From positions 1 through 64,000 of the forward strand of contig NZ_JABWGQ010000040.1 of assembly GCF_014595975.1 (NCBI RefSeq): DNA of 64,000 bases, read 5' to 3'. The position numbers were made by a program, and so were the translations under genes. The notes beneath the pieces were generated by a model. It had not been told where the DNA came from. It did no database searches and worked only from the letters and a program-made list of their open reading frames with translations. The number at the start of each line of letters is the position of its first letter. The first letter of the stretch is position 1. Shown here piece after piece: positions 29,665 to 59,040 of this stretch. The DNA is from Sphingopyxis sp. LK2115. GTDB lineage: Bacteria; Pseudomonadota; Alphaproteobacteria; Sphingomonadales; Sphingomonadaceae.

Positions 29665-31671
29665 TTAGAAGCGCGCGCGAATGCCGGCGGACAGCGCGCG
29701 GCGCTCGACGGGGTAATAGATCGCCGATGCCGGGGTCACGGTGATCGCGGCGCTGATGTCGCCGATCGCCTTCTTGCCGGTGATGTTGCGGACATCGACA
29801 AAGGCGTCGATGCCCTCGGCAACCCGCGCCCCGCCGGTCACGCCCAGCAAGGCATAGCCGGGTGTCTGGACGAGGTTGCGATAGTCGGCGAACGGTCCAT
29901 CGGGCACCCACTCGACATTCGGCGCGATATGCAGCGCGTCGCTGCCGATCCGCGCTTCGGCCCGATAGACATGCTTGGGCACCACCGGCAGGCGGTTGTT
30001 GCCGAACTGGCTGTCACCCCGAAAGCGGAAGTCGCTGCAGGTATAAACCTGCCGTAGCCGCAGCCAGCCCGTCGGCGCGATTTCCAGTGCCGCCTCGACC
30101 CCCTGATGCAGCGTGCGATCGGCGTTGAAGGTCGCTGCCGGAATGCTGGCGTTGGTGGTGAATTGCAGCAATTCGCCCCTCAGCGTCGAGCGATAGAACG
30201 CGACGTCCCAGCGGACGACCCCGGCCTTGCCGCGCGTCCCGACCTCGGCCGTCCACGCCCGCTGCGGGCGAATCGTCGAGACGATCTGGCTGACCGGCGG
30301 GGTGCCGATCGTCTGGAACACTTCGCCGAAGCCCGGAAATTCGGCCGAGCGGCTGTAATTGGCAAAGAACTGCACATCGGCGTTCGGTTCGAACAGCACC
30401 CCAAGCTTGGGCGAAAAGGCGTCGAAGTCGATCCGCCCGTCGCGCGACGTCGACACATTGACGCGCCGCTTGCGGAAACCGTCAGCATAGACCCCGCCCG
30501 CGATCAAGGTCAGCTGACGGGTCGGCCGAACCCGCACCTCGCCATGGATACTGGCGGTGCGGGCGGTCTGGTCGGCATCGAACAGCAGGGCCCCGCGCCA
30601 TCCGGCGATATTGACATATTGCCGCGCGTCGGTGCTGCCGCGACGCAGTTCGCCGCCCAACGTCACCTCGACAGACCCCGCCGCATAATCGGCGCGGAAA
30701 AAGCCGCCGGCGTCGAGCGAATCCTGATCGATTACCTGAAAGATCGGGTGATACAGCGACTTGGCATTGACAAACCCGCCAACGTCGAGCCGGAACGCGC
30801 CCCAGTCGAACGAGGTGCGGTTCTGGAGCCGCAGCGACACGATATCGCGCGCCTGATCGCCCGCCACCGCCGCCGCGCTCGCCATGCGCGGCGTGGTCAG
30901 CGCCTGAGCGAGGGTCAGCGCGCCGGGGATTTCCTGTTTGATGTCATTGTAACTGGCATAGAAGCGCGTCGAAACCACGTCGCTGAGCTTCAGCCCGACA
31001 TTGCCGTGAAAGCGAAAGCTGCGCCGGTTTACATGGTCGCGGTCGCCGCTCGATGTATCGGCGCTGACGGCTCCCCATGCATCGACGCGCTCACCGGCGC
31101 CGCCCGCCGACACCAGCCCGCGCCAGCTATCGAAGCTGCCGACATCGCCGCGCAGGTAGAAACCCTCGGCGGTGCGCCCGGTCGGGGTCACGCCATTGAC
31201 CGCACCGCCGAGCGTGCCCGACCCGAAGCGCAAGGCGTTGGCGCCGCGATAGACCTCAAGATGATCGAAAAAGATCGGTTCGAGTTCCTGGAAATCGCCA
31301 TTGTCATCGGCCAGGTTGATCGGCACCCCGTCCTGCAGCAGCGTGAGCCCGCGCATATGAAAGCCGCGCGACAGCCCCGATCCGCGGATCGAAATGCGAA
31401 CCTCTTGCCCGTAACGCGGCTGGAGATAGACGCCCGGCGAAAAGGCCAGCGTGTCGCGCAAGCTGACGATCGATTTGTCGGCATAGTCCTGGTGGCGGAC
31501 GACATCGGTGCCGCCCGCGGTTTTGGCTGCGCGCTGCTCGGCTTGGTCGGCAAGCTGCGGCGCGGTGACGATGATGGTGGCGTCGGCCGCTTCGTCGGCG
31601 TGCGCGGGACTGGCGGCAAGGCTGGTGGCGAGCGCCAGCAAGGGCGCCGCGCGAGTGGCGAATATGGTCAT
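29665..31671 (-). CDS. TonB-dependent outer membrane receptor
   Basis: A 668-residue receptor for uptake of a metal chelate or metal. A signal peptide (FATRAAPLLALATSLAASPAHA) precedes a plug with YADKSIVSLRDTLAFSPGVYLQPRYGQEVRISIRGSGLSRGFHMRGLTLLQDGVPINLADDNG and FFDHLEVYRGANALRFGSGTLGGAVN, which belongs to the FecA-like group, and a barrel ending RALSAGIRARF. It is first in a PepSY/phhA-ward transcription unit, and a DUF2946-like protein lies just upstream. Neighbours suggest metal rather than sugar import; iron or copper cannot be separated. Confidence 0.92.
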   Translation of the reverse strand: MTIFATRAAPLLALATSLAASPAHADEAADATIIVTAPQLADQAEQRAAKTAGGTDVVRHQDYADKSIVSLRDTLAFSPGVYLQPRYGQEVRISIRGSGLSRGFHMRGLTLLQDGVPINLADDNGDFQELEPIFFDHLEVYRGANALRFGSGTLGGAVNGVTPTGRTAEGFYLRGDVGSFDSWRGLVSAGGAGERVDAWGAVSADTSSGDRDHVNRRSFRFHGNVGLKLSDVVSTRFYASYNDIKQEIPGALTLAQALTTPRMASAAAVAGDQARDIVSLRLQNRTSFDWGAFRLDVGGFVNAKSLYHPIFQVIDQDSLDAGGFFRADYAAGSVEVTLGGELRRGSTDARQYVNIAGWRGALLFDADQTARTASIHGEVRVRPTRQLTLIAGGVYADGFRKRRVNVSTSRDGRIDFDAFSPKLGVLFEPNADVQFFANYSRSAEFPGFGEVFQTIGTPPVSQIVSTIRPQRAWTAEVGTRGKAGVVRWDVAFYRSTLRGELLQFTTNASIPAATFNADRTLHQGVEAALEIAPTGWLRLRQVYTCSDFRFRGDSQFGNNRLPVVPKHVYRAEARIGSDALHIAPNVEWVPDGPFADYRNLVQTPGYALLGVTGGARVAEGIDAFVDVRNITGKKAIGDISAAITVTPASAIYYPVERRALSAGIRARF

Positions 31672-57317: not shown

Positions 57318-57641
57318 TTACTTCGCCTCGGGCTCCATCGGAATGATCACCTCGTCAGGGTGATAGGCACCGAGCTTCGAGCGCACATATTCCTCGGCGA
57401 GATCGGGATCGACGCGCCGCCGGTCGAGCAGGTTGACGCGGTTCTGAAGCTCGCGCTCTTTCTTGGTCAGCTCGCTCAAGACGACACGTTTCTTTTCGAC
57501 CGACTGGCTGTATTCGCCCCAGGCGTAAAGCCCCGTCGGGCCGAAAATCGCATAGCCCAGCATCGCCAGCACCGCGATCACGGCGAGCGCCGGCCCGGTC
57601 GCCCGGCTCATCGATTTGCGGAACTTGTGGCGCTGCATCAT
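57318..57641 (-). CDS. ftsB: Septum formation initiator FtsB/DivIC-like
   Basis: A 107-residue bitopic membrane protein of the divisome FtsQLB subcomplex. One transmembrane helix (ATGPALAVIAVLAMLGYAIFG) is followed by a coiled coil (SQSVEKKRVVLSELTKKERELQNRVNLLDRRRVDPDLAEEYVRSKLG). Its place between eno and pdhA is the usual alphaproteobacterial one. A palindrome made of two GANTC sites abuts the ribosome site. Confidence 0.9.
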   Translation of the reverse strand: MMQRHKFRKSMSRATGPALAVIAVLAMLGYAIFGPTGLYAWGEYSQSVEKKRVVLSELTKKERELQNRVNLLDRRRVDPDLAEEYVRSKLGAYHPDEVIIPMEPEAK

Positions 57642-57650
57642 CGCCGCCCT

Positions 57651-57668
57651 TGAATCACAGGTGATTCA
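57651..57668 (-). promoter_or_regulatory. Palindrome with paired GANTC sites before ftsB
   Basis: TGAATCACAGGTGATTCA is an 8-bp perfect dyad with a 2-base centre, containing GAATC and GATTC, both CcrM-type GANTC motifs. It ends 10 bases before the ftsB ATG, next to AAGGG. Confidence 0.6.
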
Positions 57669-57711
57669 CGGCGTCAAGGCGCCAGCGCGCACTTGCCCCC
57701 TCGCGTTGCGA

Positions 57712-59040
<1,329 letters not shown>

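Follow-up and report, generated by a model that had tools for sequence, protein, structure and literature searches.

Two GANTC motifs lie just ahead of the divisome gene ftsB in Sphingopyxis sp. LK2115, and together they form a palindrome. Does this arrangement place ftsB under the control of DNA methylation, or is it the work of chance, of an ordinary promoter or of some other regulator? And is the palindrome itself the unit that has been kept?

The paired GANTC sites ahead of ftsB in Sphingopyxis

The preliminary description of this locus held that an 18-bp dyad made of two GANTC motifs sits beside the ribosome site of ftsB, and that its methylation state could link the gene to replication in the way of GcrA/CcrM targets. 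The sequence confirms the dyad. In the window, that is, the whole stretch of 64,000 nucleotides that was analysed, TGAATCACAGGTGATTCA on the + strand consists of two 8-bp arms flanking AG and includes, in + strand reading, GAATC and GATTC (Table 1). It lies inside the 70-bp gap between eno and ftsB, with both GANTC at most 27 bp upstream of ftsB and the nearer one ending 10 nt upstream of the ATG. Its position beside a ribosome site holds for this genome, where a Shine-Dalgarno-like AAGGG (57647-57651, - strand) abuts the dyad, but not for many family members, in which AAGGG is absent.

Table 1. Coordinates and basis of the features at the ftsB locus, including the predicted promoter elements
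Feature	Position	Strand	Basis
18-bp dyad TGAATCAC-AG-GTGATTCA, two GANTC inside	57651..57668	.	sequence, genome search
CTTGAC, predicted -35	57673..57678	-	no variation among the 55 full Sphingopyxis rows; in the family, TTG at -21 in 82/86 rows
TTCAAG, predicted poor -10, TGA before, 17-nt spacing	57649..57654	-	inference
GANTC site 2, GATTC in ftsB sense, overlaps predicted -10	57652..57656	-	genus and family conservation
GANTC site 1, GAATC in ftsB sense, at 11 bp from site 2 within the predicted spacer	57663..57667	-	genus conservation
ftsB, DivIC/FtsB family, 107 aa	57318..57641	-	ORF; Pfam DivIC PF04977, 4.6e-08
eno, upstream neighbour of ftsB	57712..58986	-	

With its centre left free, the 18-mer is single copy in the 3.2-Mb genome when up to two mismatches are allowed. 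The perfect arms alone are weak evidence, because three further dyad pairs, given two GANTC with complementary N, have a chance of about 1/64. In favour of a pairing by chance, the genome holds 15 occurrences of GANTC-N6-GANTC, and 7 out of the 10 inspected lie within stop-to-stop frames of at least 100 codons. However, a chance origin at ftsB is hardly credible, since conservation across the genus, family and class surveys described below exceeds the controls and places the GANTC sites, as sequence evidence, beyond chance. Another inverted pair, GAATCATCGCAGATTC, is found elsewhere in the genome (L068; C25:100082-100097), where there is no stop-to-stop frame of 100 codons.

Sixty Sphingopyxis genomes, that of LK2115 included, were searched, and 57 loci were counted; L058, L060 and L061, in which ftsB was not located in the stretch, and L001, a duplicate of L002, were left out. 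All 57 loci carry CTTG-N18-GATTC upstream of ftsB, and 55 carry GANTC-N6-GATTC, the exceptions being L059, which retains site 2 only, and L014, in which site 1 is broken. The layout in the ftsB sense is CTTGAC-N5-GAATC-N6-GATTCAAG-N~7-ATG. The 55 full rows show no variation in CTTGAC, GAATC or TGATTCAA, and their flanks vary, columns such as -15 to -8 upstream of TTGA being far more variable than these three blocks. The six inner bases read AACTCT in 37 of these rows and ACCTGT, the form of LK2115, in one. Judged by these alignments, the longer palindrome is private to LK2115 within the sample, and the exact dyad is not the conserved unit. Where the preliminary description had looked to relatives for the palindrome, the GANTC sites are kept before ftsB but the palindrome itself is not. 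Because eno and ftsB lie anywhere between 68 and 3408 bp apart across the genus, the element goes with ftsB rather than with eno. TTGA is preceded, at a distance of 16-20 bp, by a fairly well conserved GGAAAA stretch (51 of the 55 rows have A at -17 and 49 have A at -16); it could be an UP-like element and is weaker in LK2115.

A promoter-like frame across the family and the class

A strict search for TTGAC-N5-GANTC-N6-GATTC, which found the pattern in 10 out of 149 genomes, had suggested that it is lost outside Sphingopyxis, a reading that was overturned by a survey anchored on FtsB. FtsB was located in 144 of the 149 family genomes, and 107 of the 141 non-Sphingopyxis loci, mostly one per genus, were compared. 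GATTC stands 8-14 nt ahead of an in-frame start in 86 of them. When these 86 rows were aligned on GATTC alone, with the upstream sequence unused, TTG was found exactly 21 nt upstream of GATTC in 82 and CTTG in 76. Site 1 is variable beyond Sphingopyxis: a second GANTC lies in the spacer in 34 rows, on the -35 (TTGANTC) in 19 and in either place in 45. Eight of the 19 rows with GANTC overlapping the -35 (e.g., L107, L109 and L164) also have one in the spacer. The remaining 21 loci are without GATTC at this position; in some of them a single change seems to have removed it (e.g., GGTTC in L202 and GATGC in L104), and others have a more usual -10 at the same position (TAAAGT in L191). TTAAC, which we take to resemble a CtrA half site, immediately precedes TGATTC in 7 of the 86 rows (e.g., L208, L189 and L150), never together with a spacer GANTC.

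In the class sample of 142 genomes, 125 gave a hit with a profile built from 12 FtsB proteins; 108 of the 123 non-family loci were examined and 107 scored. GANTC occurs 5-14 nt ahead of the start in 58 out of 107 loci, compared with 4 to 12 for seven other palindromic pentamers and, under a similar rule, with 2 out of 57 long neighbouring ORFs; 49 loci have no site at ftsB. A second GANTC lies 9-15 bp upstream in 39 of the 107, and TTG is at -21 in 24 loci and at -22 in 27. Where site 1 is present, it reads GAATC in 28 loci, GACTC in 5, GAGTC in 3 and GATTC in 2, and few rows carry a form with one mismatch at offset 11 (2 of 55 in the class, 2 of 86 in the family). An all-or-none site with a free N is the trace expected from a GANTC-reading system.

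These distributions bear on two further explanations of the dyad. Its symmetry in LK2115 would suit an operator for another DNA-binding protein, such as CtrA, which is reported to control ftsB in Hyphomonas neptunium (PMC7200025), or an unrecognized dimeric regulator. We regard this as quite improbable: the longer dyad is not conserved, outside Sphingopyxis its upstream half is often gone while its downstream half and the TTG remain, and TTAA adjoins the site in the 7 family rows only. It might also be suspected that the dyad works in the RNA, as a hairpin that masks the ribosome site of ftsB or terminates eno transcription, as a 7-bp stem is possible in a transcript across the site. However, the fold energy is ordinary (z -0.94), with 32 out of 200 shuffles as good, no terminator-like site was found at the locus, and the paired arms are not kept across the family, which retains one GANTC and the TTG; moreover, transcription is predicted to start downstream of the dyad. 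Both the hairpin and the terminator were rejected, and we consider them very improbable.

The conserved unit may instead be a GANTC-bearing ftsB promoter rather than a free-standing palindrome. Counting a 17-nt spacer from TTG leads to a -10 hexamer composed of the last three bases of GATTC and three more, namely TTCAAG, TTCTGT or TTCNNT, the last of which is found in much of the class. The T that precedes GATTC would form a TGN extended -10. The ATG is mostly 9-11 nt downstream, where the predicted transcription start falls (at about 57642 in the window, adjoining the ATG), and because of this coincidence a leaderless or near-leaderless ftsB mRNA is predicted. Methylated adenines would then occupy the -13 and -11 base pairs. 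A simple scan gave no consensus sigma-70 promoter at the site. Zymomonas belongs to the same order as Sphingopyxis. Its commonest promoter is reported to have -35 TTGNNN, -10 TANNNN and a 17-nt spacer, and 119 leaderless pairs of start site and gene are listed for it (PMC7566282). At the level of sequence, GANTC lies inside a promoter-like frame, TTG-N18-GATTC, as would be expected if this predicted promoter were regulated by CcrM/GcrA.

Such a frame can be read without any methylation. TGATTCNNT might be a mere alphaproteobacterial variant of the extended -10 (TGN + TTCNNT) that happens to overlap GANTC, with methylation playing no regulatory role at ftsB. In support of this idea, T stands directly before GATTC in 85 of the 86 family rows, T at +7 is found in 49 of the 55 class rows (37 of 86 in the family), both of which would be promoter bases, and site 2 is almost always GATTC, not any GANTC (55 of the 58 class loci with GANTC). 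However, it leaves unexplained why there is a site 1 in which N is free, and why second sites have moved onto the -35. A -10 with T at -11 is also a poor one, and some loci that have lost GANTC show A again at this position (L191). Finally, the presence of the site goes with that of CcrM, though this association is confounded. Taken together, we consider the variant -10 unlikely, though far from negligible.

CcrM, GcrA and GANTC in the genome

The genome of LK2115 encodes a GcrA homologue (PF07750, 1.2e-39) and, in a 380-codon open frame, a RAMA-domain protein (5.1e-19), which is expected to be CcrM, as CcrM bears a RAMA domain. Across the class, GANTC is present at ftsB in 52 out of 78 genomes with a detected RAMA domain and in 6 out of 29 without (Fisher 2.5e-5, kinship uncorrected). 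GC content confounds this association, which shrinks within GC strata to p = 0.033 with an odds ratio of 4.1, again uncorrected for kinship. The presence of GcrA does not track GANTC at ftsB in the class (39 of 66 versus 19 of 41, p = 0.23), in a comparison in which diverged GcrA may escape the Pfam model. As measured, this null result counts against a reading by GcrA only. The proposal of a GcrA/CcrM-type target fares unevenly: both homologues are encoded and the N of site 1 varies among GANTC forms, which befits a target of a methylase, but the GcrA half of the claim is lowered.

The motif YGAKTCK has been proposed for activation by GcrA, and the GcrA of Brevundimonas is described as having no such preference (PMC7987155). 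Site 2 of LK2115 is TGATTCA, which leaves the last K unmatched; the motif is matched at site 2 in 42 of 86 family rows and 27 of 55 class rows. The window holds 108 GANTC against a mean of 313 in dinucleotide shuffles, an approximately threefold depletion, and such depletion has been reported for Alphaproteobacteria bearing CcrM (PMC3973325).

Searches of the genome for TTGA-N14-TNTGANTC and CTTG-N18-GANTC revealed no regulon with the exact ftsB layout. The former occurs only twice, once at ftsB and once (L229) close to an fmt-like ORF, where no gene in the appropriate orientation is apparent. The latter has 48 occurrences on both strands (control 23), and all 30 loci inspected lie inside stop-to-stop frames of at least 166 codons. 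Elsewhere (L231; C46 ~30763-31068), eight GANTC fall within 200 bp ahead of the ccrM-like frame, two of them directly following TTGAC (cttgacggcgGACTCtgccgGACTC), and a GTTAACCATTA stretch in the same upstream region presumably resembles a CtrA site.

A proposed link between methylation and division at ftsB

From these comparisons we think it fairly probable that the element is ftsB's own promoter, with CcrM sites built in, and that their methylation state sets its output. The promoter would consist of the -35 CTTGAC, 17 nt and a poor -10, TTCAAG, built on the CcrM site TGATTC, with a second CcrM site roughly one turn of the helix farther upstream, in the spacer; transcription would start at the ATG or one base before it, and the mRNA would be near-leaderless and would not depend on eno. 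On the model of Caulobacter promoters, CcrM would methylate both sites, and passage of the replication fork would leave them hemimethylated. Either GcrA with sigma-70 or the polymerase itself may read that state, which would so set the output of ftsB. We prefer activation as the sign of the effect of methylation. What we infer here comprises the identity of the promoter, its start site, the methylation, the reader and the sign of the effect. The idea of the preliminary description points in the right direction: the conserved GANTC sites suggest a tie between division and DNA methylation at ftsB, methylation control of the gene being a proposal.

Several Caulobacter promoters offer parallels. 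One is that of mipZ, which is likewise a division gene with two close GANTC (two juxtaposed GAnTC sites). Methylation-dependent binding of GcrA is reported there, and GcrA prefers methylated promoters (PMC3667746). Methylation and GcrA binding have been demonstrated for mipZ, whereas ftsB, known from sequence, is likened to it by description. At ctrA P1 and podJ P2, as at the predicted ftsB promoter, GANTC lies within a promoter of sigma-70 type. Their output is described as linked to the cell cycle, and Caulobacter start sites with GANTC between the -10 and the -35 as activated at 40-60 minutes (PMC4287350). The position of the motif differs, however, being -29/-28 and -24 at ctrA P1/podJ P2, whereas site 2 of ftsB is predicted to fall at about -14 to -10, overlapping the -10. 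Like ftsB, the Caulobacter genes ftsZ and ftsN are division genes with conserved upstream GANTC; both are reported to be expressed at a lower level in a ccrM deletion, and full expression of ftsZ, mipZ and ftsN to require CcrM (PMC3973325). The table of essential CcrM-responsive Caulobacter genes in that paper (Table 1) does not include ftsB.

It is possible, and we suggest it tentatively, that ftsB is an ancestral, class-wide target of CcrM: an early alphaproteobacterium with CcrM would have carried GANTC in the ftsB -10 and a second one in the spacer, and the second site would have been moved or lost in later lineages. The supply of a divisome protein would then be gated by the passing replication fork, and methylated adenines at the -13/-11 base pairs would affect how the promoter melts. 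If true, the geometry of this promoter would differ from that of ctrA P1 and podJ P2. CcrM and GcrA are widespread in Alphaproteobacteria, and their target lists differ greatly even among close relatives; a target promoter retained over many families would therefore be rare and useful. The GcrA regulon has been described as rewired beyond the Caulobacterales, in an account that does not mention ftsB in the passages concerned (PMC7987155), whereas the ftsB sites are seen in many families. If methylation controls ftsB, the locus would provide a short, portable promoter for the effects of m6A on initiation in the -10 region, as well as a handle on the coupling of division and replication outside Caulobacter.

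The literature searched contained no paper linking ftsB to CcrM sites, and the gene lists of Haakonsen 2015 and Wu 2018 could name the gene. Only one paper in that literature concerned ftsB together with CcrM, a study of S. granuli TFA (PMC6472365). In the part of it that deals with the shift to anaerobic conditions, ccrM is reported to decrease 7-fold and ftsB 3.5-fold, with ftsN, ftsB and ftsW down 3- to 6-fold and the other fts genes unchanged (PMC6472365). The joint decrease of ccrM and ftsB is correlative, but it matches the present case in both genus and gene.
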